A DNA stretch of 64,000 bases from Eubacteriaceae bacterium (GTDB lineage Bacteria > Bacillota > Clostridia > Eubacteriales > Eubacteriaceae). Positions 11,854-33,615 of the stretch are shown here, piece after piece. Within the stretch, counting starts at the first letter, position 1; every line of letters starts with the position of its first letter. Position numbers and translations under genes: made by a program. The notes beneath the pieces are model-generated. The model made no database searches. It was given only the letters and a program-made list of their open reading frames with translations, and was not told where the DNA came from. The stretch spans positions 1-64,000 of the forward strand of contig JASGLP010000005.1 in the NCBI GenBank assembly GCA_030156895.1. Reading direction: 5' to 3'.

Positions 11854-11882
11854 TTGACAAGTCTAGATAAATGTAGTATTAT
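11854..11882 (+). promoter_or_regulatory. Sigma-A-type promoter of importer module 1
   Basis: TTGACA at 11854-11859 and TATTAT at 11877-11882 are separated by 17 bases. Transcription should start near 11889 and run through the leader at 11889-12000. Confidence 0.75.
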
Positions 11883-11888
11883 GTTCAA

Positions 11889-12000
11889 GATTCGCGGATA
11901 GGTAACGCTTACACTGCGAACGAAAATTGGATACATATAATTTAACCGTGAAGGTTGATCGCCCCGCAGTAGTAGGGATCAATTCTCACGGTTTTTTTTA
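11889..12000 (+). promoter_or_regulatory. Structured leader with terminator ahead of module 1
   Basis: The leader begins with TTCGC (11891-11895), which can pair with GCGAA (11916-11920). It ends in a long hairpin whose outer stem AACCGTGA/TCACGGTT (11944-11951 with 11986-11993) and inner stem GTTGATC/GATCAAT are followed by eight T, a strong intrinsic terminator about 100 bases before the first gene. The parts GGATA, CGC, ACTGCGA and AACCGTGAAGGTTGAT recur in the module 2 leader (18861-18980). A terminator inside a 5' leader implies attenuation by a ligand, protein or peptide. It does not match a riboswitch class I know. Confidence 0.65.
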
Positions 12001-12100
12001 TCAAAAATTATGTAGGAGGATCGAATAACAGGTTATAAAGTAAGGTTTTCAAGTGAGAGATTGAGTGGAGTTTAAAAAATGTTGAAATTTGAGGAGTAAT

Positions 12101-13660
12101 ATGAAATTTGGAATGAAAAGATTATTGTGTTTTTGTATGGTGGCATTGATGATGGTGGGTTTTGTTGGCTGTAGCAACGCTGGGGCAAGTAGTAAGTCCG
12201 AACAAACAGAAATGAAGGTTGCCTACGGTAAAGATACCGGAGTTGCTTCAGAAAAGGGAAATGGTGATATGCTGTTGACCATTTTTGCTGGCGAACGACT
12301 GGTTGAGGTTGTCGATGGTGAGGTTGTGCCCAGTATTGCCGAGAGCTGGGAAGTTAAGGATTCAGGAAAGACTATTTCGTTTAAAATCAAAGAAGGGTTG
12401 AAGTTTTCCGATGGCAGTGATTTAACGGCAAAAGAAGTTAAATTTAAATTTGATCGGAACATTGCATTGAAGAACACCAGTTGGACCGAAGTTGATCGGA
12501 TTGAAAAAATTGAAGTGCCAGATGATTATACCATCAATTTTTATTATAAGGATGGCATGGATGGCTATGTTGTGCTGGCAGGTTTTGCAGAATATGGGAA
12601 CACCATTGTTAGTCCAAACTCCTTTCAGACGCCGGGGGATCCCACAACACCAATGGTAAAATTCATTGGGTCCGGGCCATGGAAGGTTGCCGATTATGTA
12701 AAAGATCAGTATACCACCTTTGTCCCCAATGAAAATTATGCAGGCGATCCGGTAAAGCTTGAGAAAATTACGGTTAGTATGATTAAAGATGATGAAGCCA
12801 GAGTATTGGCACTTCAATCTGGCGATGTGGACGCTGTTGTAGACTATTACCATGGTGGATCTGCCTATACGCCCAGAAACGTGTTAAGTTCTCTCAAAGA
12901 AGAAGGCTTTCAGGTGTTGAAGCAGGAAATGCCGATGACAACCGTATTGGCATTTAATTATACGAACAACGAGGCCTGGAAGAATATTAAACTGAGACAG
13001 GCTTTGAACTATGCCATTAACAAAGATGAAATATCTGGTTTGTTTGATGGTTGGATCAGTCCGGCAAATGATGCTTATTTTTCAGATTGCTCGCCTTACA
13101 CCACGGCACTTGGGAAACAAAGCTATAAATATGATCCCGAAAAAGCTAAAACATTATTAGCAGAAGCTGGTTTAGCAGGGTTTTCCCCAAAAATGATTGT
13201 CAATAGTGAAAATGCTGACGAAGTAAAATTAGCCGAATTACTACAATCGATGCTAAAAGAATCGGGTATCAACCTGCAACTGGATGTGATGGATGCAACT
13301 AAATATGCTGAAGTCAAGAAAACTGCCGACTGGGATCTATGCTCTTATTATATTGGTGGGCCTGAAAGACGGATTTACTCGCGAAATGAAGGGCGATTTG
13401 ATAAAACAGCTCCTGAGTTTGGTAGTTCTGGCTGTTTCACATCGGACACAATTGCGGCAGCAGTGCAAAAAGCGGTTGATCCATTTGATGAAAAAGAACG
13501 AAAAGCCGGCTTTAAAGAGTTCTATGCAGCAATCGATGCCGAAGCTGCCTGCGTGCCTCTTTACTATGATGCCGTATTTGTGGTCGCCAATGAAGGTGTT
13601 GAAGGGATTGAATTTATCGGGTCAGAACCGCGGTTTGGTCAGGTAACTTATAAAAAATAA
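12101..13660 (+). CDS. ABC importer substrate-binding lipoprotein, module 1 (SBP_bac_5)
   Basis: A 519-residue extracytoplasmic lipoprotein of the nickel/peptide-binding family. Residues 1-23 form a signal peptide and the lipobox FVGC puts the acylated cysteine at 24. The mature part follows the SBP_bac_5 plan: GERLVEVVDGEVVPSIAESW, then ISFKIKEGLKFSDGSDLTAKEV, and IKLRQALNYAINKDEI. ATG 12101 follows GAGGAG; the in-frame codons upstream to 12089 overlap that site. It leads an operon with two permeases, two ATPases and a double methyltransferase. Ligand unknown; nickel, metallophore, dipeptide or other small cationic compounds are all handled by this family. Confidence 0.88.
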   Translation: MKFGMKRLLCFCMVALMMVGFVGCSNAGASSKSEQTEMKVAYGKDTGVASEKGNGDMLLTIFAGERLVEVVDGEVVPSIAESWEVKDSGKTISFKIKEGLKFSDGSDLTAKEVKFKFDRNIALKNTSWTEVDRIEKIEVPDDYTINFYYKDGMDGYVVLAGFAEYGNTIVSPNSFQTPGDPTTPMVKFIGSGPWKVADYVKDQYTTFVPNENYAGDPVKLEKITVSMIKDDEARVLALQSGDVDAVVDYYHGGSAYTPRNVLSSLKEEGFQVLKQEMPMTTVLAFNYTNNEAWKNIKLRQALNYAINKDEISGLFDGWISPANDAYFSDCSPYTTALGKQSYKYDPEKAKTLLAEAGLAGFSPKMIVNSENADEVKLAELLQSMLKESGINLQLDVMDATKYAEVKKTADWDLCSYYIGGPERRIYSRNEGRFDKTAPEFGSSGCFTSDTIAAAVQKAVDPFDEKERKAGFKEFYAAIDAEAACVPLYYDAVFVVANEGVEGIEFIGSEPRFGQVTYKK

Positions 13661-13753: not shown

Positions 13754-14710
13754 TTGTTAAAGTACATTTTCAGAAGGTTACTCTACTTAATACCGGTGAT
13801 GATCATAACATCATTTATCGCTTATATGTTAGTATATTTGTCGCCCAGTTCGCCGGCACAGATTATTCTAAAAGCACGCTATACATCAGAACCGACCCAA
13901 GAACAAGTTGAAGATTTTAATGAAGAGTATGGGTTTGACAAACCCATACTGGTTCAATATACAACCTGGTTAAATAAGGCAATGCACGGCGATTTGGGAA
14001 AATCATTGACGGATGGATCAGATGTATGGGAAGATTTCATTTACAGTTTTAAGGCAAGTGCAAAATTATATTTTTCCAGCCAAATACTAGCGTTGTTCAT
14101 TGCTTTGCCGATCGGTGTGTATTCGGCATTTAAGGCGAATTCATTGTTTGATCGGTTCAGTCGGGCTTATTCGCTGGTCGGAATATCGCTACCCGATTTC
14201 TGGCTGGGGATGATCCTGGTGTATATCTTTTCAATTACGCTAAACATTCTGCCTTCGTTTGGTTATACGTCACCGAAAAACCTGATTTTACCGATGTTGG
14301 CACTGGGGCTTTCCAGCTCATTCTCGTTGATCAGGCTGGTACGAACCAGTGTGCTGGAAGTATTGCATTTGAATTATATCAGAACAGCACGGTCAAAGGG
14401 GTTAAGTGAAGGGCAGATCATGATGAAACATGCACTCAGAAACGCGATGATCCCAATCGTGACGGTATTGGGAATTCACTTAACCCATTTTATTGGGGGT
14501 GCAGTCGCGGTGGAATCGATGTTTGCCTGGCCGGGGCTGGGGAATTTTTTTGCTAAAGCGGCAGGCAGTCAGGATATCCCGGTGATTCAGGGGTTTGTAT
14601 TATTAAGTGCGATTTTCTTTATTATCGCAAATTTGATTATTGACATTATCTGCAAACAACTGGATCCAAGAATTGATTTTCATAATGAAAGTGGAAAAAA
14701 CAATGGATAA
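13754..14710 (+). CDS. ABC importer permease, DppB/NikB type, module 1
   Basis: 318 residues with a first membrane helix at the N-terminus (YIFRRLLYLIPVMIITSF), a periplasmic loop containing SPSSPAQIILKARY, and a BPD_transp_1 core with the cytoplasmic EAA-type loop YIRTARSKGLSEGQIMMKHALRNA. The ending QLDPRIDF is typical of DppB/NikB proteins. The start is TTG 13754, after GAGGTGAAGG. It should pair with the product of the next gene to form the membrane channel. Confidence 0.9.
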   Translation: MLKYIFRRLLYLIPVMIITSFIAYMLVYLSPSSPAQIILKARYTSEPTQEQVEDFNEEYGFDKPILVQYTTWLNKAMHGDLGKSLTDGSDVWEDFIYSFKASAKLYFSSQILALFIALPIGVYSAFKANSLFDRFSRAYSLVGISLPDFWLGMILVYIFSITLNILPSFGYTSPKNLILPMLALGLSSSFSLIRLVRTSVLEVLHLNYIRTARSKGLSEGQIMMKHALRNAMIPIVTVLGIHLTHFIGGAVAVESMFAWPGLGNFFAKAAGSQDIPVIQGFVLLSAIFFIIANLIIDIICKQLDPRIDFHNESGKNNG

Positions 14711-15518
14711 TCATTTAAAAACAGGGCTGGTCTTGATTTTGGTGCTGGCAGCAATCGTTTTTGCCGGACCATTAATCGCTCCTTACGATCCCTTTGAGGT
14801 TGATATGAGTGTCAGATTGCAGGGGATTAGTTTAGCCCATACTATGGGTACCGACCAATTAGGCAGAGACCTATTTAGTCGCTTGATTTATGCAACCGGA
14901 ACATCGGTAAAAATATCGCTGGTTGTGGTTGCGGCTTCGATGACTATTGGCTTTATTTTTGGTAGTGTGGCAGCCTTTTTAGGCGGGGCAGTGGATGAAT
15001 TCTTAATGCGGATTATTGATGTATTCATGGCCTTTCCGACCAAGATATTCACCATTGCTATTGCCGGAGTCTTAGGTGCATCGGCCTTTAATATTACCCT
15101 GGCCTTAATCTTCACTTCCTGGGCATCCTATGCCAGAATGGTTCGGGGGTGCGTACTAACCGCCAAGCAATTGCCGTTTATTGATGCATCGGTTGCACTG
15201 GGGGCTAATCGTCATTATACTATTGTTAAGCATGTCCTGCCCAGTGTTTTTCAGCCGCTGTCAACCTTTGCCTTTCAACGAATCGCCCACACCATGATGG
15301 CGATTGTGGGGCTTAGCTTTATTGGGCTCGGTGTTCAACCGCCAACCCCGGAACTGGGTGCGATGATCAATGAATCCAAGAATTTCATGACTACGGCTCC
15401 ACATCTGTTTATTTTTCCGGGACTATTAATCAGCTATGTGGTGTTTAGTTTCAATATTTTAGATGACAGTTTGCGGGATTACTGGGATCCGCGAATAAAA
15501 AGTGAGTTGGTGTTATGA
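14703..15518 (+). CDS. ABC importer permease, DppC/NikC type, module 1
   Basis: About 271 residues, the second channel subunit. N-terminal LVLILVLAAIVFAGPLIAPYDP and HTMGTDQLGRDLFSRLIYATG are hallmark DppC/NikC segments; IGLGVQPPTPELGAMI and the final YWDPR are also conserved. The start is uncertain: ATG 14703, inside the end of the upstream gene, gives a standard N-terminus, while ATG 14685 would add six residues. Overlap with the preceding gene suggests coupled translation. Confidence 0.88.
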   Translation: MDNHLKTGLVLILVLAAIVFAGPLIAPYDPFEVDMSVRLQGISLAHTMGTDQLGRDLFSRLIYATGTSVKISLVVVAASMTIGFIFGSVAAFLGGAVDEFLMRIIDVFMAFPTKIFTIAIAGVLGASAFNITLALIFTSWASYARMVRGCVLTAKQLPFIDASVALGANRHYTIVKHVLPSVFQPLSTFAFQRIAHTMMAIVGLSFIGLGVQPPTPELGAMINESKNFMTTAPHLFIFPGLLISYVVFSFNILDDSLRDYWDPRIKSELVL

Positions 15519-16462
15519 AAAAGGAAAAGCTTTTAGAAGTTGAGCAATTAAATATTAAATTTACCACCAGCATTGGTGATGTGAATGTATCTGATGATAT
15601 AAATTTCACCTTAAACAAAGGGGAGACATTCTGCATTGTCGGCGAGAGTGGCTGTGGAAAAAGTGTGGTAGCATTGTCACTAACACGGTTGCTACCTGAA
15701 AATGCTGTGATTAACGGTTTGGTAAAATTTGAGGGACACCCGATTTCTGGCTTGGATGAAAAAGCGTTTGCCAAGATCAGAGGTCAAAAAATAGCCACTA
15801 TTTTTGAGCAGCCGATGAGCTGTATCAATCCGGTGATGCGAATTGGGGATCAAATTGCGGAAACCTATCGGGCCAATTTTAACTGTTCCAAAAAAGAAGC
15901 CAAGCTTCAGGCAATAAAAAAACTGGAGGAGGTTAAAATGCCGGTTAATCGCTATAACGCCTATCCCCATGAGCTTAGTGGGGGGATGCAGCAACGGGTG
16001 ATGATTGCGATTGCCCTGGCCTGCAATCCCCAGCTATTAATAGCCGACGAACCGACAACTTCCCTCGATGTGACGGTTCAGTATCAGATATTGGAATTAC
16101 TGCAGGAGCTTAAAGAAAAATACCACATGACCATTTTGATGATCACTCATGATATGGGCGTTGTCCACGATATGGCCGATCGGATTGGGGTAATGTATGC
16201 CGGAAACATGATGGAAATTTCAGAAAGAGAAGATTTTTTCAAGAAGCCGCTCCATCCTTATGCCGTAGAACTACTAAACGTGGTCAAAGATCCATGTCAT
16301 TACACAATCCCGGGGGCAGTGCCGAATCTGATGGAGACTTTTACGGGGTGTCCCTTTGAACCACGGTGCAATAAAAAGACGGCGTTGTGTAAAACCAATA
16401 AACCCGAAAGTGTTGTGATGGGTGAAAGAATAGTGAGATGTTTAAATGTCGTGCCTAATTGA
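15515..16462 (+). CDS. ABC importer ATPase, DppD/NikD type, module 1
   Basis: 315-residue ATP-binding subunit. Walker A is GESGCGKS (about 43-50), signature LSGGMQQR, Walker B LLIADEPTTSLD, and the switch His lies in LMITHDMG. The C-terminal oligopeptide-type extension carries GCPFEPRCNKKTALC, the cysteine motif common in DppD/OppD. The ATG overlaps the upstream stop (ATGA). It powers import with the next gene's product. Confidence 0.92.
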   Translation: MKKEKLLEVEQLNIKFTTSIGDVNVSDDINFTLNKGETFCIVGESGCGKSVVALSLTRLLPENAVINGLVKFEGHPISGLDEKAFAKIRGQKIATIFEQPMSCINPVMRIGDQIAETYRANFNCSKKEAKLQAIKKLEEVKMPVNRYNAYPHELSGGMQQRVMIAIALACNPQLLIADEPTTSLDVTVQYQILELLQELKEKYHMTILMITHDMGVVHDMADRIGVMYAGNMMEISEREDFFKKPLHPYAVELLNVVKDPCHYTIPGAVPNLMETFTGCPFEPRCNKKTALCKTNKPESVVMGERIVRCLNVVPN

Positions 16463-17408
16463 AGCGAAGCATTTGTCAAAAGTATTTAAAGACAAAGAGT
16501 CAACCGTATTTAAAAGAAAAGAAATTATTGCCGTAGACGATGTTTCTTTGACAATCAATCGGGGGGAAAGTGTCGGGATCGTCGGTGAAAGCGGTTGTGG
16601 CAAGTCGATGCTCGGTAAGATGCTGGTCGGATTGACCATCCCCACAAAAGGAAGTGTGAATTATGAGGGGAGAGAAATATCAAAACTACCCTATAGTGAA
16701 ATAAAAAAACTGCGACCGAGACTGCAGCCTATTTTTCAGGATGCTGACAGTACCTTAAATCCCAAGTTTACCGTTAAAAAGCTGCTTGAAGAACCATTTG
16801 TTATTAATGATATTTCAAAAAGCGAGGCCAATCAGCGGATTGACGAATTGCTGTCCTATGTTAATTTGGGGAAAGAGCTTTATGGTCGATACCCCCATGA
16901 AATTTCCGGTGGCCAAAGACAACGGCTGGGATTAGCCCGTGCCTTGTCGCTGAAACCGGATTTTATTGTGGCGGATGAACCAGCAGCATCTCTGGACAGT
17001 TCGGTTCAGGCCCAAATTCTCCAGCTGTTGAATCAGATGAAAGCTAATCATGGTCTGGGACTTGTTTATGTGTCACATAATTTAAGAATCGTGAGCATGA
17101 TGACAGAAAAAGTCAATGTCATGTATTTGGGCAGTTTTGTGGAAACCGGGGATACCAAAGATGTTTTTGAAAATCCCTGCCATCCTTATACGAAAATGCT
17201 GATAGGTTCAGTTTTAACAATCGATGGGGATAAACGAAAAATGGGAAAAACCAAGGTATTCGGAGAGCCACCAGATCCAAAGAATCGTGCAACCGGCTGC
17301 GCATTTCATCCCCGCTGTGATTGTTGTACCGCCATTTGTAAGGCTGAAAAGCCGATTCTCAAGTCGCTGGGGGAGGGCAACCGTCAGGTCGCCTGCCATC
17401 ATGCTTAA
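16446..17408 (+). CDS. ABC importer ATPase, DppF/NikE type, module 1
   Basis: 320-residue second ATPase, overlapping the first by 17 bases. Walker A GESGCGKS, signature ISGGQRQR, Walker B FIVADEPAASLD, and YVSHNLRI at the switch position. The tail has GCAFHPRCDCCTAIC, with two extra cysteines compared with the usual motif, an odd feature that could add a metal or cluster ligand. It is followed at 42 bases by a tiny open frame and then the methyltransferase gene. Confidence 0.92.
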   Translation: MSCLIEAKHLSKVFKDKESTVFKRKEIIAVDDVSLTINRGESVGIVGESGCGKSMLGKMLVGLTIPTKGSVNYEGREISKLPYSEIKKLRPRLQPIFQDADSTLNPKFTVKKLLEEPFVINDISKSEANQRIDELLSYVNLGKELYGRYPHEISGGQRQRLGLARALSLKPDFIVADEPAASLDSSVQAQILQLLNQMKANHGLGLVYVSHNLRIVSMMTEKVNVMYLGSFVETGDTKDVFENPCHPYTKMLIGSVLTIDGDKRKMGKTKVFGEPPDPKNRATGCAFHPRCDCCTAICKAEKPILKSLGEGNRQVACHHA

Positions 17409-17450: not shown

Positions 17451-17495
17451 ATGAAAGTTGAATTTTTAGGTAGCGTAGGAGAGAGAAATGAATAA
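17451..17495 (+). CDS. Possible 14-residue ORF between transporter and methyltransferase
   Basis: ATG 17451 is preceded by a good ribosome binding site (GAGGAG, seven bases away) and encodes MKVEFLGSVGERNE before a TAA at 17493-17495, overlapping the start of the methyltransferase gene by eight bases. Its own final codons contain the ribosome binding site of that gene. It may be a coupling peptide, a real small product, or the relic of a gene beginning. No homologue is recognised. Confidence 0.3.
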   Translation: MKVEFLGSVGERNE

Positions 17496-18828
17496 TATGA
17501 TACAAGCAGTTGAAGAGCGGTGGGACGTCAATGCCCTAAGATATGATGAACGGCATCAGGTAAATACGACGGTTGAAGATCGAAAAGCCTGGATGGAAGC
17601 GTTGGCAGAACATATCGGCCCAGATAAAGACATCGTTGTCATGGATGTGGGGGCAGGAACCGGCTTTATTACCATTATGGCGGCTGAACTCGGTTATTCG
17701 TGTAAGGCGGTGGATATTTCAAATGGCATGTTGGATGTGTCCCGAAAGCACGCAGAAAAAAAAGGATTGGATATTGAGTATATTAAAAGCAATGTCGAAA
17801 CGATTCCATGTGAAGCGGGCAGTGTGGATGTAATCGTCAACAGACATGTGATGTGGACCTTATTAAATCCGGCTGAAGCTTGCAAAGAATGGTTCCGGGT
17901 ATTGAAAAATGGGGGGAAGCTGTTATGCATTGTTACCATCGGTCCAATGGGAGAGTCCAGCAATCATTATAGTCAGGACATTGAAGACCAACTGCCGTTA
18001 AAGGGTGCTGATGAAAATAAACTCATTAATACCCTTATTGAAGCCGGGTTCTCCAATGTTGAAGCCATTAAACTTGATAAAATCCGCAACATGAGTGAGG
18101 ATAAATCATGGTATATCATAAAGGGCGTAAAAGGCGTAACGACACCGGCACTGTTGGAACGAATCGAAAATCGCTGGAACGTCAATGCCGGTAGATATAA
18201 TGACAATCATGGCAAGAATGAAAATTTGGAGCAATGGACAACTGAAATAAAAATGCTTTTAGGCGATGATCTCACAAAAAATGTTATCGATGTTGGCACC
18301 GGAACCGGATTTGTATCCTTGATCGAAGCGACAATTGGCTACCAGACAACCGGACTGGATTTATCGGTGGGCATGCTGGATTATGCCAAACAGGATGCTG
18401 AAGCGAGAAATTTGAAAATCAATTTTATCAAAAGCTCGGTTGAAGCGATTCCGTTTACAGATGAAAGCTTTGATATCGTCACCAACAAATCACTGATGTG
18501 GACTTTAACCGAGCCGCTAAAAGCAGTTGCCGAGTGGCACCGATTGTTGGTTCCCGGTGGAAAGCTGTTTTGCTTTGTCCATATTAAGGATGGCCCGGTT
18601 CACAGCAGTCATTATGAACAGGACATTGAGGACTCATTACCGCTAAAAGGGGCACCCGTTTCCGGGTTTATCGATGTGATCAAAGCGGCCGGGTTTTCAC
18701 ATGTTGAAGGGATTCCATTAATGAATCTGCCGCCAATGCATGGAACAGAGGCAACTGAGAGTAACTGCTGGTATGTGTTTAAGGGTGAAAAAAAACGGCA
18801 TCAAACAAATAGACCAGCTAGTAAATAG
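17488..18828 (+). CDS. Tandem class I SAM-dependent methyltransferase (two domains)
   Basis: 446 residues made of two homologous methyltransferase domains (about 6-214 and 227-437). Each has motif I (DVGAGTGFIT and DVGTGTGFVS), an acidic end of strand 2 (VDIS, LDLS), a MWTL segment after strand 4, and RVLKNGGKL or RLLVPGGKL at strand 5. Both also share QDIED followed by LPLKGA and an AGF segment, so they arose by duplication. Fold and motifs indicate a cytosolic small-molecule methyltransferase of the UbiE/Methyltransf_11 group. It ends the module 1 operon. Module 2 has the same arrangement as two separate genes. Substrate unknown; methylation of a transported ligand or metallophore is an inference. 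Confidence 0.85.
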   Translation: MNNMIQAVEERWDVNALRYDERHQVNTTVEDRKAWMEALAEHIGPDKDIVVMDVGAGTGFITIMAAELGYSCKAVDISNGMLDVSRKHAEKKGLDIEYIKSNVETIPCEAGSVDVIVNRHVMWTLLNPAEACKEWFRVLKNGGKLLCIVTIGPMGESSNHYSQDIEDQLPLKGADENKLINTLIEAGFSNVEAIKLDKIRNMSEDKSWYIIKGVKGVTTPALLERIENRWNVNAGRYNDNHGKNENLEQWTTEIKMLLGDDLTKNVIDVGTGTGFVSLIEATIGYQTTGLDLSVGMLDYAKQDAEARNLKINFIKSSVEAIPFTDESFDIVTNKSLMWTLTEPLKAVAEWHRLLVPGGKLFCFVHIKDGPVHSSHYEQDIEDSLPLKGAPVSGFIDVIKAAGFSHVEGIPLMNLPPMHGTEATESNCWYVFKGEKKRHQTNRPASK

Positions 18829-18860: not shown

Positions 18861-18980
18861 GAGTATAGGGATACGCAGACTGCGATATCTTTCACTACAC
18901 AGAATAATATAAAATAAATTAAACCGTGAAGGTTGATTGTCCTACTGCAGTAGGGCTCGGCTTTTGCGGTTTCTTTATAT
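18861..18980 (+). promoter_or_regulatory. Structured leader with terminator ahead of module 2
   Basis: Related to the module 1 leader. GATACGCA (18870-18877) pairs, with one bulge, with TGCGATATC (18881-18889). The 3' part has AAACCG (18921-18926) pairing with CGGTTT (18967-18972) around a perfect 14-base palindrome CCTACTGCAGTAGG (18941-18954), then a T-rich run. Shared blocks with 11889-12000 are GGATA, ACTGCGA and AACCGTGAAGGTTGAT. The gene starts 35 bases downstream. A clear promoter is not visible, so the leader may be made by read-through or from a weak promoter near 18841-18869. Confidence 0.6.
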
Positions 18981-19007
18981 AAAAAATAATTTGTTGGAGG
19001 AAACTTT

Positions 19008-20594: not shown

Positions 20595-20667
20595 TGGATA
20601 GATTTTTGCAGCGGAAGAGCTTTAAATCAGCTCTTCCAGCTAAAAAAGAACTGAAAGGTTGAATGAT

Positions 20668-21603: not shown

Positions 21604-21608
21604 TGATA

Positions 21609-22454: not shown

Positions 22455-22469
22455 TTGGAGATGGTATTG

Positions 22470-25797: not shown

Positions 25798-25826
25798 TTG
25801 ACAATTGTCAGTAATCTTGTTATAAT
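25798..25826 (+). promoter_or_regulatory. Consensus promoter with -35 palindrome, module 3
   Basis: TTGACA (25798-25803) and TATAAT (25821-25826) are both perfect and 17 bases apart. The -35 is embedded in the 12-base palindrome TGACAATTGTCA (25799-25810), a plausible repressor site. Confidence 0.8.
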
Positions 25827-25832
25827 TCACTT

Positions 25833-25915
25833 ACTTAAATTAAGAATTAATTAAGACGCCAGTGAGGCAGAAGCTCTTTGAAAAGAGTTTTGGTTCATTG
25901 GCGTTTTTTTGCAAA
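25833..25915 (+). promoter_or_regulatory. Leader terminator ahead of module 3
   Basis: ACGCCA (25856-25861) pairs with TGGCGT (25899-25904), extended by TGA/TCA after a mismatch, around an inner CTCTT/AAGAG hairpin (25874-25887), followed by seven T. It lies about 25 bases before the start codon. The architecture, an outer stem enclosing a hairpin then T-run, is that of the leaders of modules 1 and 2, though base identity is low. Confidence 0.6.
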
Positions 25916-25935
25916 AAAGAAGGAGTGTAGAGAAG

Positions 25936-26529
25936 TTGAGTGTGAATAATTGTCAAGCGACAAAAGACTATTTTAATAACATTGCAAAAAAATGGGACAG
26001 TATCTGTCAGCATGATCCCTACAAGATTTCCGCGATTCTGACCCTGGCAGGAATAAAAAAGGCTAGTCGGATTCTGGATATTGCAACCGGGACAGGGATA
26101 CTGATCCCACATTTATTAAAGCAAGAACCAGCTGAGATTGTTGCCATTGATTTATCAGAACAAATGATCATTCAGGCACAGAAGAATTACAAGAGTCAGC
26201 TGGTTCATTTTGAAAATGCCAATTTTTATGCGTTTGATCAGAAGGGATTTGATTTTGCCATCGTCTATAGTGCTTATCCCCATTTTGAAAACAAAGAAGC
26301 CTTGATGCTGCAATTATCGTCCTGCCTGAAACCAGGGGGACGGTTTATGATTGCCCACAGTGAAAGCAAAGAGACGATCAATGGCCGACATTCGGGTGAA
26401 CATGTAAAAATGGTTTCAACGACTTTAAATGACGTGATGACAGAATCGGAAAAATTCCGGGCCTGTTTTTCCGTTGATATAATGGTGGATACCGAAGCCT
26501 TATATATTATTTCAGGACGAAAATCATAA
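25936..26529 (+). CDS. Class I SAM-dependent methyltransferase, module 3
   Basis: 197 residues. DYFNNIAKKWD is a typical N-terminal cap; motif I is DIATGTGILIPHL, strand 2 AIDLSEQM, and SCLKPGGRFMIAHS is strand 5. The short HSGEHVKMVST loop replaces the LPLK block of the module 1 and 2 enzymes, so it is a different subfamily. TTG 25936 follows AAGGAG; GTG 25942 is also possible, whereas the upstream TTG 25909 lies in the terminator. Confidence 0.82.
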   Translation: MSVNNCQATKDYFNNIAKKWDSICQHDPYKISAILTLAGIKKASRILDIATGTGILIPHLLKQEPAEIVAIDLSEQMIIQAQKNYKSQLVHFENANFYAFDQKGFDFAIVYSAYPHFENKEALMLQLSSCLKPGGRFMIAHSESKETINGRHSGEHVKMVSTTLNDVMTESEKFRACFSVDIMVDTEALYIISGRKS

Positions 26530-26663: not shown

Positions 26664-27785
26664 GTGTTTAATGATGATGTGTTGCTTAATAAACCAATAG
26701 TGGAAACGGATCCATTGTATCAATTCCTGAATACCTGCTCGAGGAGTTTTAAACAGTTTAAAATTCTCGATACTGCGATAAAGCGAGGCTTTTTTAATCA
26801 TCTGGATGAATGGAAATCAGCAGTTGATTTAGCAAAAGAGTTGGGTACCAATCCAGATTTGACCGATTGTATATGTATGAGTCTGGCTGAAATCGGTTTT
26901 ATTGAGCAGAGCGGCGAGGTGTTTAAGAACTCAGAACTCAGCACATGCTATTTTAAAAGTGAGTCGCCGTATTTTCAGGGAGAAGTGTTGTTTAACATCA
27001 AAAATGGTTTTTCACTCTGGGAAAGACTTGATGAAGTAATAGAAAATGGACCGATCAAAGTAAGCGAAGCTGATTATTTTAAGGACAATCTGATTCATTC
27101 CCTCGCCTCTGAAATTATGTGTGGTGAGCTGCAAAAAACTACAAGTCTAATCGCATCATTGCCCGAATTTTCCAGGGCAGAAAAACTGCTGGATCTTGGC
27201 GGGGGACACGGTCTTTATTCAGTCGCGTTGAGTCGGCTTAACCAGAATCTCGAGATCGATATTTATGATTTTGCGGATGTTATTGAGGCGACCCAAAAAT
27301 ATCTGGAAAAATATGATGGCCATCGAATTGATTTAAAACCGGGTAATCTTTTTATGGACGCTATTGGTAATGACTATGATCTGGTATTGTTCTCCTACAA
27401 TCCGGGCGGAAAAAACCCGGAGCTGGTGCCGAAGATTTTTTCGGCGCTGAAAGAAGGGGGCTTATTTATTAGCAAGCACATTTTCTATGGCAAGGATGAA
27501 GGATCGAGAGATCCGCTGCTTGATCTTGAGTATAATCTTTCAGATTTTGAAGGTGTTAAAAAGGGCCGAAAAATCTATAGTTTTGCAAGAGATCTGACAT
27601 TTGAAGCCTATCTTAGCTTGCTTGAGCAGTATTTTACGATTGCCCAGATTGTTGAGACTGAAGACTTTGCCACAGAACCGCTGTCAAAATTTGGCGATGC
27701 ATTGGAGGCAAAGATGATTATTGCAAAAAAGAAAGCTAAAAAGCAGTGTGTCGAGCGGGATGAGGTTGAAGCGATTGGGGGTTGA
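26664..27785 (+). CDS. O-methyltransferase-like protein with winged-helix N-domain
   Basis: 373 residues arranged like plant-type/HIOMT O-methyltransferases: an N-terminal dimerisation and winged-helix part (about 15-110, with FKILDTAIKRGFF and AVDLAKELGTNP) and a C-terminal SAM domain with LLDLGGGHGLYSVAL and YDFADVIEATQKY. DLVLFSYNPGGKNPELVPKIF and LKEGGLFISKHIF follow. The C-terminal tail is basic and rich in Lys. GTG 26664 follows AAGGAGA. It is four bases upstream of the permease gene of module 3. Acceptor unknown. Confidence 0.85.
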   Translation: MFNDDVLLNKPIVETDPLYQFLNTCSRSFKQFKILDTAIKRGFFNHLDEWKSAVDLAKELGTNPDLTDCICMSLAEIGFIEQSGEVFKNSELSTCYFKSESPYFQGEVLFNIKNGFSLWERLDEVIENGPIKVSEADYFKDNLIHSLASEIMCGELQKTTSLIASLPEFSRAEKLLDLGGGHGLYSVALSRLNQNLEIDIYDFADVIEATQKYLEKYDGHRIDLKPGNLFMDAIGNDYDLVLFSYNPGGKNPELVPKIFSALKEGGLFISKHIFYGKDEGSRDPLLDLEYNLSDFEGVKKGRKIYSFARDLTFEAYLSLLEQYFTIAQIVETEDFATEPLSKFGDALEAKMIIAKKKAKKQCVERDEVEAIGG

Positions 27786-27788
27786 GCA

Positions 27789-28730
27789 ATGTACCGGTAT
27801 ATCGGTAAACGTTTATGCTTGTTATTGATTGTCATACTCGGGGTAACCGTCCTGACCTTTACACTGATGCATGCGGCGCCGGGGGATATGGCGGAAATGA
27901 TTGCCATTTCCCGCTATGGGGCAGAAAACCTGACAACCGCAGAGGTGGAAGCAATCCGGCTGTCAGAAGGTCTGGATTCACCGGTAATGGTGCAGTATTT
28001 TCATTGGCTGACCCATATGATCAGCGGTGATTTTGGCAACTCACTGATTACCGGAGAACCGGTTTTGGAAGAAATTCTGATCCGCTTACCGGCTACCCTG
28101 AAATTATCATTTGCTGCGCTGCTGGTATCGCTGGTAATTGCGATTCCGGCCGGTGTGATTGCGGCATCCAAACAGCATTCGCTGATGGATTATCTAACCA
28201 TGTCCAGCGCCTTGATCGGAACCAGTGTTCCGAATTTTTGGCTGGGACTCCTGTTAATTCTGCTATTTTCGGTTACCCTGGGATGGTTTCCGGTTTTTGG
28301 CTATGGTGGACTTCGTTATATGGTGTTACCGGCACTGACACTGGGAGCGGGACTGGCGGGCATTACCACCCGCCTGACCCGATCCAGCATGCTGGAGGTA
28401 CTCAATCAGGATTATGTCACCACGGCCCGGTCAAAAGGGTTATCAGAACGACGGATCATTTTCAAACATGCCTTAAAAAATGCCTTTATCCCGATCATCA
28501 CCGTAATTGGCATTCAACTGGGTCATTTGTTGGGTGGAACGGTGATTGTCGAATCGATTTTCGCCTGGCCGGGAATTGGCAAGCTTCTGGTTGATTCAAT
28601 TTACGCCCGGGATTTTGCCACGGTTCAGGCCTGTGCCTTGTTGTTTGCGATTATTTTTGTCCTGATCAACCTGATTGTGGATGTTCTTTATCTGTTTTTG
28701 AATCCTAAAATAAGTTATCAGAAGGAATAA
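27789..28730 (+). CDS. ABC importer permease, DppB/NikB type, module 3
   Basis: 313 residues: RYIGKRLCLLLIVILGVTVL helix, APGDMAEMIAISRYG loop, cytoplasmic loop YVTTARSKGLSERRIIFKHALKNA, and an LNPKISYQKE tail. Starts four bases after the O-methyltransferase-like gene. Confidence 0.92.
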   Translation: MYRYIGKRLCLLLIVILGVTVLTFTLMHAAPGDMAEMIAISRYGAENLTTAEVEAIRLSEGLDSPVMVQYFHWLTHMISGDFGNSLITGEPVLEEILIRLPATLKLSFAALLVSLVIAIPAGVIAASKQHSLMDYLTMSSALIGTSVPNFWLGLLLILLFSVTLGWFPVFGYGGLRYMVLPALTLGAGLAGITTRLTRSSMLEVLNQDYVTTARSKGLSERRIIFKHALKNAFIPIITVIGIQLGHLLGGTVIVESIFAWPGIGKLLVDSIYARDFATVQACALLFAIIFVLINLIVDVLYLFLNPKISYQKE

Positions 28731-29566
28731 TGATGATACGTGATATTCTAAAAAATAAGATGGCACTCAGCGGACTGCTCATTATCACGATGCTGATTCT
28801 GGTGGCGCTATTGGCACCGGTTCTGGCACCTCATGATCCCTATGAGCAATTACTGGAAAAGGCATTGATGGCGCCTTGTTGGGATTATCCCTTTGGTACC
28901 GATGAGTACGGTCGTTGTGTTTTAAGCCGGATCATCTTCGGAACCCAGACGGCCTTGTTTATCGGTTTGAGTGTGACCGTGGTCTCAGCTTTTGTTGGGG
29001 TGGGGATCGGGTTGACCGCAGGGTTTTACGGTGGTCGCTTTGATGAATTTCTGATGCGCATTGTGGATGTCTTTCTGGCCTTTCCCGGGTTGATTCTGGC
29101 GCTGGTGGTAGCAGGTTTGCTGGGGCCGGGGCTGCCAAACGTTATTTTTGCTCTGGCTTTAGTTGGCTGGATGGGTTATGCCCGGGTCGTCAGAGGGGCG
29201 GTTTTGGCCGAAAAAGAGAAAGAGTTCGTCGAAACCGCGCGCTCCCTTGGTGCCAGTGATGGTTACATCATCTTTTTGCATCTGCTGCCCAATATTATTT
29301 CGCCGGTGATTGTGATGGCCAGTATTGGCATCGGTCAGGCCATTCTGGGAGCGGCGGCTCTGAGTTTTCTTGGAATCGGGGTGCAACCACCGACGGCGAT
29401 GTGGGGTTTGATGTTAAGTTATGGCAAAGACTATCTCCAGTCAGCCCCTTATTTAACGATTTTTCCGGGCGTGATTATTATGGTGACGGTACTGGCTTTT
29501 AACTTTCTGGGGGATGGGTTAAGAGATGTCTGTGACCCTCGGTATGGAAAAGTGATCGAAGAATAG
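28730..29566 (+). CDS. ABC importer permease, DppC/NikC type, module 3
   Basis: 278 residues; FGTDEYGRCVLSRIIFGTQTA, LGIGVQPPTAMWGLML and GDGLRDVCDPRYG are family hallmarks. The ATG overlaps the preceding stop by one base and follows AAGGA; the adjacent ATG 28733 is an alternative. Confidence 0.92.
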   Translation: MMIRDILKNKMALSGLLIITMLILVALLAPVLAPHDPYEQLLEKALMAPCWDYPFGTDEYGRCVLSRIIFGTQTALFIGLSVTVVSAFVGVGIGLTAGFYGGRFDEFLMRIVDVFLAFPGLILALVVAGLLGPGLPNVIFALALVGWMGYARVVRGAVLAEKEKEFVETARSLGASDGYIIFLHLLPNIISPVIVMASIGIGQAILGAAALSFLGIGVQPPTAMWGLMLSYGKDYLQSAPYLTIFPGVIIMVTVLAFNFLGDGLRDVCDPRYGKVIEE

Positions 29567-29577
29567 GAGTGATGGAG

Positions 29578-30516
29578 TTGACATTACTGAGCATAAAAAA
29601 TCTGAATACCGCATTTAAAACGCGAAATGGGGAAGTGCAGGCCTGTAGAAATATCGATCTGGACATTGAAGTGGGTCAAACCGTGGGAATTATCGGCGAA
29701 ACCGGTTGTGGAAAATCGGTGCTGGGGATGTCGATCTTAAAGTTGTTGCCCTATAATGCCAGGGTCACCGGCGAAATCCGGTATCTGGAACAGAACTTGC
29801 TAACCTTATCGGATCAGGCGATGCGGGAAATTCGCGGCGGCGGCATTGGTCTTTTGCCCCAGAGTCCGTCAACTTCTCTGAATCCGGCGATGAAAATCGG
29901 CACACAGATCGAGGAAGGACTGGTTCTTCACCGAAAAATGGGTAAGCCGGCCGCCAAACAGAAAGCGGTGGACATGCTTACTTTTCTGGGGATTAAAAAA
30001 GCAAAAAAAGTCAGCGAACAATTTCCCCACCAGTTAAGTGGCGGAATGAAACAGCGGGCGTTGGCAGCCATCAGCATTACCGGAGAACCCCGGCTTCTGA
30101 TTGCCGATGAGCCCACCAAAGGGTTGGATGCCATTGTCAAAACTCAGGTGGTTGAGCTGCTAAAGCAATTGAAAGCGGAAACAGGCGCCGCCTTACTTTT
30201 AATCACTCATGATCTGAAAGTGGCTGAATGTCTTTGTGATAAAATCGTGGTAATGTATTCGGGGGAAATCATTGAAATGGCAGCGACCCAAAAAATTCTT
30301 AAAAAGCCCGCACATCCGTATACCAAGGGGCTGTTACAGTCTTTGCCGGAGGCTGGAATGACGCCAATCCCCGGACAAAGCCCGAGTTTGAGTCAGGTGA
30401 TTTCGGGTTGCCGGTTTTATGACCGCTGTGAAATCAGACAGGCCGCCTGCCGGTATCAAAGGGTACCCTTGAGCGTGGTAAACGGTTCTCAGGTAAGGTG
30501 TTTATATGCTGATTAG
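29578..30516 (+). CDS. ABC importer ATPase, DppD/NikD type, module 3
   Basis: About 312 residues. Walker A GETGCGKS, signature LSGGMKQR, Walker B LLIADEPTKGLD, switch LITHDLK, and a GCRFYDRCEIRQAAC tail. TTG 29578 has TAGGAG at eight bases; ATG 29572 would lie only two bases from that site, so TTG is preferred, but either start gives nearly the same protein. Confidence 0.92.
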   Translation: MTLLSIKNLNTAFKTRNGEVQACRNIDLDIEVGQTVGIIGETGCGKSVLGMSILKLLPYNARVTGEIRYLEQNLLTLSDQAMREIRGGGIGLLPQSPSTSLNPAMKIGTQIEEGLVLHRKMGKPAAKQKAVDMLTFLGIKKAKKVSEQFPHQLSGGMKQRALAAISITGEPRLLIADEPTKGLDAIVKTQVVELLKQLKAETGAALLLITHDLKVAECLCDKIVVMYSGEIIEMAATQKILKKPAHPYTKGLLQSLPEAGMTPIPGQSPSLSQVISGCRFYDRCEIRQAACRYQRVPLSVVNGSQVRCLYAD

Positions 30517-31441
30517 AGTAGAAAACCTATGCAAACATTACAAAACTGGAAACATGCATGCAAAACAGCAGTCGGTGCTTGAACAGCTGAACTTCTCGAT
30601 TGCCCAGGGCCAAACCCTGGGGTTGATTGGTGAAAGTGGCTGTGGCAAGTCCACGCTGGCGAGAACCATGCTGGGACTGACACCGCCCTCCGGAGGAAAG
30701 ATATTTTTAAATGAACAAGAAGTTTTAACCCAACGGGGAAGCTTGAAAAAAGAGTTTTGTGGGAAAATGCAGATTATTTTCCAACATCCGGAAAGCGCGC
30801 TAAACCCGCGGATGAAGATTGCGCAGAGTCTGGCTGAGCCCCGGCGGATTCAGCAGCGGTACGCAAAAAACTTGGCTGCACAGGAGGACATGGACAGTCT
30901 TTTGAAACAGGTGGGTTTGAGTGAAGAGCATCTAAGCCGCTATCCCCATGAACTCAGTGGCGGACAAATTCAGCGGGTGGTGCTGGCGCGGATTCTATCA
31001 CTCAATCCAGAATTTCTGGTGGCGGATGAACCCACCTCGATGCTGGATGTCTCGGTACAGGCCCAGGTGCTTCACATTTTAAAAGAAAATCAGAAAAAAC
31101 ATGGAATTGGGTTATTGTTTATCTCTCATGATCTGGAAGTCGTCCGATGGATGAGCGATCAGATTGCGGTGATGTACAAAGGCCAGATTGTAGAAATGGC
31201 CCCAGCCGCAGACTTGTATAACCATCCCCGACATCCCTACAGCCAGTTGCTGGTAGAATCATCGCTCGCCCATCAGCCGGTTTGGGAGACAAAAAACACA
31301 GAACCACTGCGGCCGGAGGGGGGCAATAGCTGTCAGTTTTTTCAGCATTGTTGTCAATCTGAAGAAGCCTGCAAAAACAAACCGGAACTGCACGAAAAAG
31401 CACCCGGTCATACAGTAGCCTGCTGGAAAGCGTCGTTATAA
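30506..31441 (+). CDS. ABC importer ATPase, DppF/NikE type, module 3
   Basis: 311 residues overlapping the preceding gene by 11 bases. Walker A GESGCGKS, signature LSGGQIQR, Walker B FLVADEPTSMLD, switch FISHDLE. The C-terminal motif is SCQFFQHCCQSEEAC. Confidence 0.92.
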   Translation: MLIRVENLCKHYKTGNMHAKQQSVLEQLNFSIAQGQTLGLIGESGCGKSTLARTMLGLTPPSGGKIFLNEQEVLTQRGSLKKEFCGKMQIIFQHPESALNPRMKIAQSLAEPRRIQQRYAKNLAAQEDMDSLLKQVGLSEEHLSRYPHELSGGQIQRVVLARILSLNPEFLVADEPTSMLDVSVQAQVLHILKENQKKHGIGLLFISHDLEVVRWMSDQIAVMYKGQIVEMAPAADLYNHPRHPYSQLLVESSLAHQPVWETKNTEPLRPEGGNSCQFFQHCCQSEEACKNKPELHEKAPGHTVACWKASL

Positions 31442-31553
31442 ACTGATGACAATGGTTAACGATTATCGTTGCCCGGAAGAAATGATAAAAAAGCAATCTT
31501 TTTCCGGCATAGAAAAATTAATAGATCGATCTAAAAACCTGAGGAGGAGAAAA

Positions 31554-33092
31554 GTGAAAAGTAAAAAATTATATCTAGTAGCCATTATTTTGATGGGCAT
31601 GTTCCTGGTTGGTGGATGCAGTGTGAATGGATCCACTGCCAGCAAAGATCAGATATTGGATGTGGCGATCGGAACGGATATTAATACTTGGGATATTACC
31701 AAATTCCCAGAAGGTGACGCCCGTTTTGTATGGTCCCAGATTTATGAAACCCTGGTACGATTGGATGCCGACTTGAATATGGTTCCCGGTTTGGCGGAAT
31801 CTTGGGAATCCCAGGAAAATGGAAAAGTCTGGATCTTTAAATTACGGCAGGATGTCAAATTTCATGACGGTACCCCTTTGACTGCTGAAGCGGTGAAATA
31901 TTCCTATGGGGATCGGGCCTATGTGACAATGGCTAAAACCCTGCAATTTGAAAACATCGAAGTAATCGATGATTATACCGTAAAGTTCACCTGTCCCAAA
32001 CCCATGCCGTTGCCCACTTATATGACCCATATTGCCTGGCCGGTCGTCAGCCCTACCAGTGTCAGTGCAACGGGTGAGTTTATTAAACCCATTGGAACCG
32101 GACCCTTTAAGTATAATTCCTATACCAAGGGACAGGAAGTGGTTCTTGATAAGAATGAAGAGTACTGGGGAGATGAAGTGAAGCTCAGCCAGGTTATCTT
32201 TAAAATTATTCCGGATTCATCCACCCGGATTATGGCGCTGACCTCTGGCGATGTCGATATGAGCCTTAAAATTCCCGAAAGTGATGTTGCCCAGCTGCAA
32301 GCGGATAAGGATATCACCGTCAACCGCAAACTCAGTACCTTTACCGACTTTCTTCAGTTTAACACGGCCAAAGCACCGTTTGATGATGTCAGTGTTCGAA
32401 AAGCTGTCGCCAATGCCATCGATACCGAGGGAATCGTTAAGAATGCGTTAAATGATGTGGGGGTGGCAGCCCAAGGAAGAGCCTATTCACCCGTTATGAT
32501 GTATTCGGCTAAAGATCTGCCGCTTTACAGCCAGAATCAGGCAACCGCCAAATCGTTATTGGCAGCCGCTGGCTGGAAAGACAACAATGGTGATAAAATT
32601 CTGGAAAAAGATGGACAGCCCTTAAAGGTTGTGTTACTGGTTGGTCAGTCCTGGAGTCCGAGAGAGCTAAAAATTTCAGAAATTTGTCAGGCTCAGTTGA
32701 AAGAAATTGGTTTTGATGTGGAGGTGCAGCAGGTGGAAGCGGCGGCTTTTAGCGAAATTGAAAAAGCCGGGAATTTTGATATGCTGATGCGAACCGGTTA
32801 TTATGTTTGGGGCCCTTATCCTCACCACGTTAAGGTCCATTTCTCAAAAAATTACGCCAGTCACTACAACAATCCAGCTTATGATCAACTGGTACAAGAA
32901 GGCGAAAGTACAACAGATGATGCTAAAAAAGCCGAGATATACGGTAACTTGCAGAAAATGATATTGGAAGAGGTTCCTGCTTTTTACCTGCTGCATGAAG
33001 AAAAAATTGTGGCAACAAGAAATAACGTTCAGGGTTACGAGATCTCAGCGGAAGACCCCTGGCTTGAATTAAGAGGCGTTTACCTGAAGTAA
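31554..33092 (+). CDS. ABC importer substrate-binding lipoprotein, module 3 (SBP_bac_5)
   Basis: 512 residues from GTG 31554, preceded by GAGGAGGAG; the in-frame extension to 31446 has no matching signal. The signal peptide ends in the lipobox VGGC (Cys22). Family motifs: IYETLVRLDADLNMVPGLAE, WIFKLRQDVKFHDGTPLTAE, PFDDVSVRKAVANAIDTEGI. Unlike modules 1 and 2 the binding protein gene comes last, after the ATPases. Ligand unknown. Confidence 0.9.
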   Translation: MKSKKLYLVAIILMGMFLVGGCSVNGSTASKDQILDVAIGTDINTWDITKFPEGDARFVWSQIYETLVRLDADLNMVPGLAESWESQENGKVWIFKLRQDVKFHDGTPLTAEAVKYSYGDRAYVTMAKTLQFENIEVIDDYTVKFTCPKPMPLPTYMTHIAWPVVSPTSVSATGEFIKPIGTGPFKYNSYTKGQEVVLDKNEEYWGDEVKLSQVIFKIIPDSSTRIMALTSGDVDMSLKIPESDVAQLQADKDITVNRKLSTFTDFLQFNTAKAPFDDVSVRKAVANAIDTEGIVKNALNDVGVAAQGRAYSPVMMYSAKDLPLYSQNQATAKSLLAAAGWKDNNGDKILEKDGQPLKVVLLVGQSWSPRELKISEICQAQLKEIGFDVEVQQVEAAAFSEIEKAGNFDMLMRTGYYVWGPYPHHVKVHFSKNYASHYNNPAYDQLVQEGESTTDDAKKAEIYGNLQKMILEEVPAFYLLHEEKIVATRNNVQGYEISAEDPWLELRGVYLK

Positions 33093-33111
33093 GGAAGGAT
33101 GAGGAGATCAA

Positions 33112-33615
33112 ATGAAAATTACAATTCTATATTTTAGTAAAACCGGTAATACCGAAAAGGCAGCTAGCTATATCAAAGAGGGGATGCTGACGGCGGGAGA
33201 TTTCGAGATTCGGCTGATGAATTTAAATCATCCGGAATCCGTCGACAGTCAATTTATTAACGACAGTGAAGCCGTGATCATGGGTACCCCCACCTATGTG
33301 GCCAATATGTGCTGGCAGTTTAAAAAATGGTTTGACGAGGATTGGTCGTGTCAGTTGGGTGGAAAAATGGGAGCGGCCTTTGCCACGGCCAACGCCATGC
33401 ATGGGGGCGGTGATATTGCTCTGCAGTCGATGATCAGCCATATGCTGGTTAGAGGGATGCTGACCTATTCATCGGGTGCCGGCTGTGGACGTCCCTATAT
33501 TCATCTGGGTCCGATTGGCATTGGCGTGAATAATGGTGTGGAAGAACGGAAAGATTTTTTTGAACTGTTCGGGAAACGGGTCGGCGAACAGGCGCTGCGA
33601 CTGTTTGTTAAATAA
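33112..33615 (+). CDS. Flavodoxin-family protein
   Basis: 167 residues. The N-terminal ILYFSKTGNTEKAASYI is a flavodoxin-type FMN phosphate loop, and GTPTYVANMCWQFKKWFDE matches the second FMN-contacting loop. The C-terminal half is rich in Gly (SSGAGCGRPYIHLGP). GAGGAGATCA precedes the ATG. It follows the module 3 binding protein by 19 bases, so it is probably in the same operon; an electron-transfer or reductase role, for example releasing metal from an imported complex, is only an inference. Confidence 0.82.
   Translation: MKITILYFSKTGNTEKAASYIKEGMLTAGDFEIRLMNLNHPESVDSQFINDSEAVIMGTPTYVANMCWQFKKWFDEDWSCQLGGKMGAAFATANAMHGGGDIALQSMISHMLVRGMLTYSSGAGCGRPYIHLGPIGIGVNNGVEERKDFFELFGKRVGEQALRLFVK

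Follow-up and report, generated by a model that had tools for sequence, protein, structure and literature searches.

We analyzed the first 64,000 nucleotides (here called the window) of contig JASGLP010000005.1 of a Eubacteriaceae bacterium (assembly GCA_030156895.1), a metagenome-assembled genome (MAG) that is 85% complete and whose genus appears to be Acetobacterium. Between positions 12089 and 33092 lie, head to tail, three complete importers of the nickel/peptide type, each with a substrate-binding protein (SBP) of the family SBP_bac_5 and each encoded together with two methyltransferase (MT) domains (Table 1). All three modules hold the five-part NikABCDE complement of SBP_bac_5 protein, two permeases, and two ATPases. 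The row of three full importers accompanied by MTs that the original prediction had read here was borne out gene for gene, positions included.

Table 1. Features of the module region and its right flank (window positions; +, forward strand)
Feature	Position	Strand	Remarks
Module 1 promoter-like site	11854..11882	+	TTGACA-17-TATTAT; consensus match only, 11/12
Module 1 leader hairpin R1	11934..12014	+	Terminator-like; 87.5 bits; conserved 5' arm CCGTGAAGGTTGAT at 11946-11959
Module 1 substrate-binding lipoprotein	12089..13660	+	SBP_bac_5; best solved matches 5yh8, NikA
Module 1 permeases	13754..15518	+	NikB-type 13754-14710; NikC-type ~14640-15518
Module 1 ATPases	15515..17408	+	15515-16462, 16446-17408
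Module 1 fused double class I MT	17488..18828	+	LPLKGA family, subclade MT-II; two Methyltransf_11 stretches
Module 2 leader hairpin R1	18912..18992	+	87.2 bits
Module 2 substrate-binding lipoprotein	19008..20594	+	
Module 2 permeases	20659..22454	+	20659-21603, 21603-22454; 42-46% identical to module 1 permeases
Module 2 ATPases	22455..24195	+	22455-23411, 23395-24195; 36-40% identical to module 1 ATPases
Module 2 class I MT	24197..24886	+	Subclade MT-II
Module 2 second class I MT	24883..25668	+	Subclade MT-II; 4-nt overlap with preceding MT gene
Module 3 promoter-like site and terminator-like leader hairpin	25798..25930	+	Promoter-like site 25798-25826, consensus 12/12
Module 3 small class I MT	25909..26529	+	Separate family
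Module 3 O-methyltransferase-like protein	26664..27785	+	Methyltransf_2 (PF00891) and dimerisation domain (PF08100)
Module 3 permeases	27789..29566	+	27789-28730, 28730-29566; second permease by Pfam; cross-module identity
Module 3 ATPases	29569..31441	+	29569-30516, 30506-31441; 38-42% identical to module 1/2 ATPases
Module 3 substrate-binding lipoprotein	31446..33092	+	
Flavodoxin-like protein	33112..33615	+	Relative adjoins importer module in L189, L043, L194
Metallo-beta-lactamase-fold and flavin reductase-like proteins	34159..35509	+	Right border of module region
Cobalamin riboswitch	35666..35843	+	RF00174, 101.3 bits, gathering 31.5
Class I MT heading BtuCDF-like operon	35996..36820	+	Separate group
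FecCD-type permease, ATPase, and Peripla_BP_2 protein	36784..39783	+	Permease and ATPase by sequence reading; under cobalamin riboswitch

Recent tandem duplication was ruled out as the origin of the modules by their divergence, the SBPs being 26-29% identical to one another and the other components 36-46%. In module 2, 1 nt separates the ATPase gene from the first MT gene, which overlaps the second by 4 nt; module 3 has a 3-nt gap downstream of the O-methyltransferase-like gene, and the fused MT gene of module 1 begins 79 nt after the preceding gene. Such spacing supports co-expression inside each module. Because of their separate leaders and promoter-like sites, the modules would more likely form three transcription units than one; over the whole region, promoter-like matches are in no clear excess (50 found, 44.7 expected). 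The leader hairpin of module 3 differs from R1, the hairpin before modules 1 and 2; a 98% identical copy occurs in one related locus (L189; labels beginning with L, G, and C are ours for loci, genomes, and contigs) and in no other genome fetched by that stage. L189 also carries an orthologue of the O-methyltransferase-like protein (5848-6969). Orthologues of the fused MT, likewise fused and 80-88% identical, were found in 3 of 60 relatives searched.

In the genus, the coupling of importers to MTs exceeds chance. A profile made from 26 MTs of the window, of this genome, and of genus loci fetched around MT matches, and hence centered on the genus, gave 88 matches in 19 whole genus genomes. Within 8 kb on the same strand, 43 of the 49 strong matches (at least 200 bits) have an SBP_bac_5 gene, and 47 have an SBP_bac_5 or Peripla_BP_2 gene; the two left uncoupled are both on short contigs (G018:C586 and G000:C35). 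Intermediate matches (between 110 and 200 bits) are coupled in four cases out of five, and weak ones (<110 bits) in 7 out of 34. Viewed from the importers, 36 of the 60 SBP_bac_5 genes of the genus have a strong MT at this distance on the same strand. For Peripla_BP_2 an MT of at least 110 bits lies near 9 of 115 rows (115 rows compared versus 118 in the table count, two of them under the cut-off). Among the rows listed for SBP_bac_3, 33 share a contig with an MT match, and the nearest is 22 kb off. The window genome has two other SBP_bac_5 importers, on contig C48, with no adjacent MT among open reading frames (ORFs) of at least 130 aa over 20 kb and no match listed on that contig for the window MTs as queries; the second importer runs toward the contig end, beyond which an MT gene is possible.

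Outside the genus the link again proved real, conserved, and widespread. A class-wide search gave a match at E ≤ 1e-35 in 22 of 293 genomes (at most 9 candidates scored per genome), and a scan of named genomes with one general MT motif yielded 237 confirmed relatives, the best 80 of which were kept. Over the loci fetched by that stage, 160 of 165 MT domains were retained, short ones being dropped, and three duplicates (from the duplicate contigs L082/L175 and L086/L182) were removed from the counts. The profile scores of the domains outside the genus form two groups with none between 110 and 150 bits, and we called matches strong at 150 bits or more and weak below 110 bits. Operon runs were judged with home-made profiles, so that missed importers are possible. 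By this measure 49 of the 80 strong MTs, from Clostridia, methanogens, and Proteobacteria, share an operon run with a Nik-type (41) or FecCD-type (8) importer; one more has only an ABC_membrane-type pair, and 30 have none of these. A single weak MT out of 34 is importer linked, and it is related to the small MT of module 3. The original prediction had staked the functional link on the association being found in related genomes; it was searched for and is present, for 47 of 49 strong MTs within the genus and 49 of 80 outside. Its count of exactly two MT domains per module is correct for the window and frequent elsewhere but is no rule: of 29 Nik-MT operons outside the genus, one MT of this family is present in 17 and two in 12 (some loci being cut). 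Looser cases also occur: an MT on Sinorhizobium pSymB (from a tblastn search of plasmids) is divergent from a FecCD-type operon, a loose fit, and, contrary to a strict rule, a Selenomonas plasmid carries an MT homologue that no such importer adjoins. In a literature search confined mostly to open-access papers, the records and passages covered named no MT as a partner of such importers.

In a tree of 141 rows (19 near-copies among the 160 domains having been dropped), one MT group takes in 104 rows (SH-aLRT 93, not starred) and holds 74 transporter-linked rows, versus 5 of the 37 rows outside it. The group pairs with both Nik-type and FecCD-type importers, one row having only an ABC_membrane-type pair. 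Over the tree the Nik- and Fec-linked rows need 8 changes, and at least 7 for the Fec label are imposed by starred branches. The MT thus seems to stay the same while the importer type is exchanged, as if one MT group had repeatedly acquired unrelated types of importer as partners. Subclade MT-II (27 rows; support 98, starred; Nik 18, Fec 6, none 3), which also holds methanogens and ANME archaea, contains the four LPLKGA-type domains of the window. Neither the MT at 35996 nor module 3's small MT belongs to the main group; two relatives of the latter stand downstream of an ECF S component (PF12822), under an R1 leader, in G017 and G009. The LPLKGA-block family that the original prediction named takes in the MTs of modules 1 and 2 but not those of module 3, in which the small MT is separate and the other protein belongs to Methyltransf_2.

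The MTs carry the GxGxG motif of class I S-adenosylmethionine (SAM) MTs, and D50, G52, G54, G56, and D73 are invariant in 25 sequences. An AlphaFold model of the protein encoded at 24197-24886, made from a 25-row alignment of window and related-locus sequences, has the Rossmann-type fold of class I MTs (mean pLDDT 93). Its best solved fold matches are small-molecule and peptide MTs with TM-scores of ~0.55-0.7, headed by LahSB (6uak). By sequence, too, LahSB is the top or sole solved match to three queries within the limits applied. We know of no link between LahSB and an importer. LahSB, which is 27% identical to the window MT, methylates C-terminal carboxylates and acts on lanthipeptide precursors, according to one account (PMC11285071). 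The MTs stay below the curated NCBIfam cut-offs of named families; the best whole-protein scores, all for the two-domain fused MT, are 125 bits for UbiE/MenG (TIGR01934, cut-off 158.35), 104 for CpaM (cut-off 180), and 102.1 for UbiG (cut-off 102.95, missed by less than a bit).

Among relatives the MTs have a recurrent enzymatic partner. In a Blautia MAG (L068, 4682-6376), an AstE/AspA deacylase domain and an MT domain share a single 564-aa ORF, and AstE genes lie near MT and Nik genes in ten more loci (L040, L047, L050, L051, L054, L067, L094, L095, L173, and L184), six of them from the genus. For the AstE relative in L094, the closest family is the N-acetyl-diaminobutanoate deacetylase DoeB (85 bits, below cut-off). 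If one molecule is both hydrolyzed and methylated beside a chelate importer, this would suit the dismantling of an imported complex, with the groups that hold the metal either removed or capped.

A second line of evidence comes from the leader RNA. In R1 a nearly invariant 5' arm pairs with a 3' arm that is followed by a T-run; the copies before modules 1 and 2 are 75% identical over 85 nt. The exact 14-mer of the 5' arm occurs twice in the window, with no more copies when 2 mismatches are allowed, and at least two such matches arise in 7 of 100 shuffles; as the motif is weak by itself, the alignment carries the case. With a covariance model from 17 copies (E ≤ 0.01, 150 candidates scored per genome), R1 was found at 36 places in 15 of the 19 genus genomes, 35 of them upstream of importer, MT, or exporter genes. 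An SBP_bac_5 gene follows within 5 kb in 27 cases. The other nine copies precede a FecCD-type gene (one), FmdE and then an MT and/or Peripla_BP_2 gene (three, one of them on contig C84 of the window genome), an MT at a contig end (one), an ECF-S gene and small MT (two), a MATE gene whose called start R1 overlaps (one), and a DNA methylase-like gene (one). The last, a 38-bit match in G006 before this unrelated gene, is probably due to chance, and so may be a weak match (41 bits) at G011:C1:2656244, upstream of a cobalamin riboswitch that an importer follows. Nineteen of the 36 matches were not in the seed; five of them are weak (E > 0.001), and 18 stand upstream of genes for importers, MTs, or exporters. 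In an alignment of 31 distinct rows, pairing holds in 94.9% of cells and both sides change in 12 of 18 pairs; none of 500 shuffles reaches the observed level, and slid versions pair 37-50% of cells, although the fitting of this alignment to the model and the kinship of its rows both favor the result.

The R1 leaders matched none of 4,227 Rfam families. Between 11640 and 36000 the only Rfam matches at E ≤ 1 were the cobalamin riboswitch at 35666 and a subthreshold snoRNA at 30580 (17.9 bits, gathering 40); the candidate of a known riboswitch before modules 1-3 was accordingly rejected, with no cobalamin riboswitch there up to E = 1. Beyond the genus, no R1 was found in the 130 non-genus members of a set of 149 genomes, under stricter filters and with few candidates per genome. 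We propose that R1 is a shared leader that co-controls several importer/MT operons; it may respond to the metal or its ligand, although it could also bind a protein or be no more than a conserved terminator. Two R1 copies can stand together: a tandem pair before one importer in G007 (L191, 7761-8083) is likely the scar of a module loss, and G017:C7 also has two, at 87565 and 87751.

What the importers carry is best judged from relatives. In Gilliamella sp. wkB108 (L077) the gene order is larA-type isomerase, MFS transporter (assigned by eye), larC, larE, larB, MT, nikA, and the remaining importer genes; the four Lar products are all above curated cut-offs, and NikA scores 609 bits against a cut-off of 393. 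In Proteus mirabilis (L186), reached through the tblastn search of plasmids, a nikABCDE operon is led by an MT that shares 57% identity with the Gilliamella one, with NikA at 626 bits, a permease above the nickel/cobalt cut-off, and the other subunits recognized by their own profiles. (The 4.08-Mb L186 record, NZ_OL790811.1, is entered as a plasmid but by its size looks like a chromosome.) Nik and Ynt supply nickel to the urease of P. mirabilis, according to a review (PMC11026637). In the window, SBP1 and SBP2 have CntA and NikA as their nearest solved relatives (the former being structure 5yh8, which we take to be CntA, the opine-metallophore receptor), and SBP3 has an uncharacterized SBP (5u4o), AppA, and NikA. 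DUF4198, a family that belongs to cobalt/nickel transport, is present in four loci (L043, L045, L168, and L184; confirmed by Pfam in L043, L168, and L184). Cobalamin riboswitches precede nitrogenase-like/FecCD/MT operons (L046 and L048) and AstE-linked SBP_bac_5 cassettes (L040, L047, and L051). Relatives suggest nickel as the metal, and the riboswitches of neighboring and related operons suggest cobalt or corrinoid supply. A study of Acetobacterium wieringae (PMC10134865) describes several NikA systems, mostly on one contig, with NikR not encoded, and its table for the isoprene-reducing culture lists a "Methyltransferase 1" of unknown role that is not tied there to the importers.

Given NikA and Lar in Gilliamella, the Proteus nik operon, the CntA/NikA kinship of SBP1 and SBP2, and the DUF4198 partners, a metal or metal complex is the best reading of the ligand. 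That part of the original prediction gains support through relatives, although the window SBPs themselves score below the NikA and CntA cut-offs; likewise its statement that nothing in the sequence names the ligand holds for the window alone but not for its relatives. The modules resemble NikABCDE in having one SBP, two permeases, and two ATPases and in that MT-bearing relatives pass the NikA cut-off; they differ in that the window SBPs do not and in their MT partner, which the literature surveyed does not name as a component.

We propose that each module pairs a metal-chelate importer with one or more dedicated SAM-dependent MTs that, once the complex is in the cytoplasm, act on its organic ligand, a reading whose chances we judge to be about even. 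The importer would take up nickel or cobalt bound to a small organic molecule, in many cases a carboxylate-rich one. The MTs would then methylate that ligand, converting donor groups (carboxylates being the likeliest) to methyl esters and so lowering its affinity for the metal; the metal would be released to nickel and cobalt enzymes, and the spent ligand kept from binding it again. In relatives the complex may be dismantled with help from a deacylase, in one case part of the same polypeptide as the MT, and from redox partners (flavodoxin, flavin reductase, and nitrogenase-like reductase), and the shared leader RNA would co-control several of the operons. That the substrate of the MT is the imported ligand, and that methylation frees the metal, we infer from this arrangement.

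Several observations weigh against this proposal. The window SBPs score 209, 243, and 234 bits on the NikA equivalog profile (TIGR02294, cut-off 393) and 177, 198, and 172 bits on that of CntA (cut-off 800), and the kinship of SBP3 to 5u4o and AppA makes a peptide-like ligand possible for module 3. The Gilliamella and Proteus MTs form a sister subclade, MT-I, to the MT-II that contains the window's four domains, so that carrying their context over to the window would be a step across subclades. The carboxylate chemistry of LahSB, at 27% identity and a TM-score of 0.58, may not transfer. Coupling is incomplete, as a strong MT within 8 kb is missing for 24 of the 60 SBP_bac_5 genes of the genus and as the operon runs of 30 of the 80 strong MTs outside it lack all three kinds of transporter. 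Finally, the MATE and ABC_membrane-type transporters next to some modules might instead serve to export a chelator that the cell has made.

Export leads to the main rival of ligand dismantling, namely chelator biosynthesis, which we consider unlikely. The MTs would build a small metallophore from a common metabolite in one or two SAM-dependent steps, by methylation or by transfer of the aminocarboxypropyl group of SAM; the product would leave through the MATE or ABC_membrane-type pairs that adjoin several modules and be retrieved by the importer. Operons as small as an MT plus NikABCDE would fit, as would the appearance of 5yh8 among the nearest solved SBPs and the resemblance of the L094 deacylase to DoeB. 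The comparison with Cnt and staphylopine is close in that a NikA-like SBP (CntA) and an importer are tied to SAM-using enzymes, with an exporter sometimes near. However, the NAS-like synthase CntL (PF03059) was found in none of the 19 genus genomes (control, 1 of 14 genomes, Methanosarcina acetivorans), which argues against the known opine-metallophore route, and membership of the NAS-based systems was rejected; the window modules have class I MTs instead. No scaffold-building enzyme was recognized in them, nor an opine dehydrogenase, for which no dedicated profile search was made. Three different modules per genome would moreover require three chelators, and ABC_membrane-type pairs can import metallophores as well, as YbtPQ and IrtAB do.

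Less probable again is that the MTs modify imported tetrapyrroles or corrinoids in cobamide or heme salvage. Heme-binding protein A falls within SBP_bac_5, and a cobalamin riboswitch precedes the adjacent MT-BtuCDF-like operon and related operons, one of which combines a NifH-like gene (best match CfbC, 334 bits versus a cut-off of 402) with NifDK-like and FecCD-type genes and an MT. BtuCDF uptake under a cobalamin riboswitch is matched by the operon at 35666-39783, which is also led by an MT, but that MT belongs to a separate group, and modules 1 and 2 carry R1 and, like module 3, no cobalamin riboswitch. The Gilliamella and Proteus SBPs, moreover, are NikA above cut-off, beside nickel-cofactor genes in one case and in a studied nickel importer in the other.

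We give little credence to a role without metal, in which the importers would carry organic nutrients (peptides, N-acyl amino acids, or modified peptides) to be degraded or detoxified by way of methylation or deacylation. In its favor are the breadth of SBP_bac_5, the activity of AstE/AspA enzymes on N-acyl amino acids, and the fact that LahSB, the closest solved structure, is itself a peptide MT; the Lar/Nik context, DUF4198, the pairing with FecCD-type importers, and the FmdE-Peripla_BP_2 operons under the same R1 leader all speak against it. That the MTs are bystanders, co-regulated with the importers or located in the same hot spot, is very improbable, for despite the varying modules of the locus and the 30 strong MTs without such a transporter, the nearly contiguous and overlapping genes of module 2 (1-nt gap, 4-nt overlap), the AstE-MT fusion, and the recurrence of the coupling across unrelated lineages and importer types are hard to reconcile with it.

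Ligand dismantling by the MTs that accompany such importers in this acetogen and in many more anaerobes would, if correct, suggest an unrecognized chemical step in microbial trace-metal uptake. How nickel and cobalt are released from organic carriers after uptake is poorly known, and a conserved enzyme family tied to importers, a studied nickel importer among them, offers a concrete handle on it, while the R1 leader independently opens another way to the signal. Because acetogens and methanogens rely on enzymes of nickel and cobalt, the step would bear on carbon fixation and methane formation. The wider proposal, that in bacteria and archaea a dedicated clade of MTs, once with a fused deacylase, disarms chelators imported by unrelated types of importer as a new step in nickel and cobalt supply and that R1 in Acetobacterium is a new attenuator sensing the metal or chelate, we put forward only tentatively, as somewhat more doubtful than sound.

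The module region is a hot spot with varying modules. Its right border, the metallo-beta-lactamase and flavin reductase genes with the FecCD-type operon, is common to the window and to G007, G009, and G011, the operon of G009 being without an MT. Upstream, an ABC_membrane-type pair (a single gene where the locus is cut) occurs in the window and in G003, G007, G008, G009, and G011. G003 is without the right-hand block, and its modules extend to the azaaromatic riboswitch that also lies right of the window modules. Between these borders the importer modules vary in number and kind among relatives. In the window, an insertion sequence (IS)-like element (8893-11641; rve/Mu-transpos_C transposase, an AAA-type partner by eye, and DUF6431) separates module 1 from the ABC_membrane-type pair (3473-6962). 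A Cys/Gly-rich ORF of 71 aa (33913-34128), under the ORF cut-off and presumably resembling DUF5320-type proteins, lies between the flavodoxin-like and metallo-beta-lactamase genes.

Among related operons led by cobalamin riboswitches, L046 (5489-12680) and L048 (10376-17529) comprise NifH/NifD/NifK-like genes, a Peripla_BP_2-type protein, a FecCD-type permease, an ATPase, and an MT. To the right of the FecCD-type operon of the window follow the azaaromatic (yjdF) riboswitch and a 139-aa gene (39852-40386), also found in the right flank of G003 (L037), and then a tandem pair of very similar membrane proteins of 268 and 284 aa (40402-43158), the first differing at its C-terminal end. Sequence reading further assigns thiamine genes downstream of a TPP riboswitch (47836-47947) and a corrinoid methyltransferase set of MtrH-like, corrinoid, and MtaA-like proteins (52773-55380). 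A c-di-GMP-I riboswitch lies on the minus strand at 296-353.

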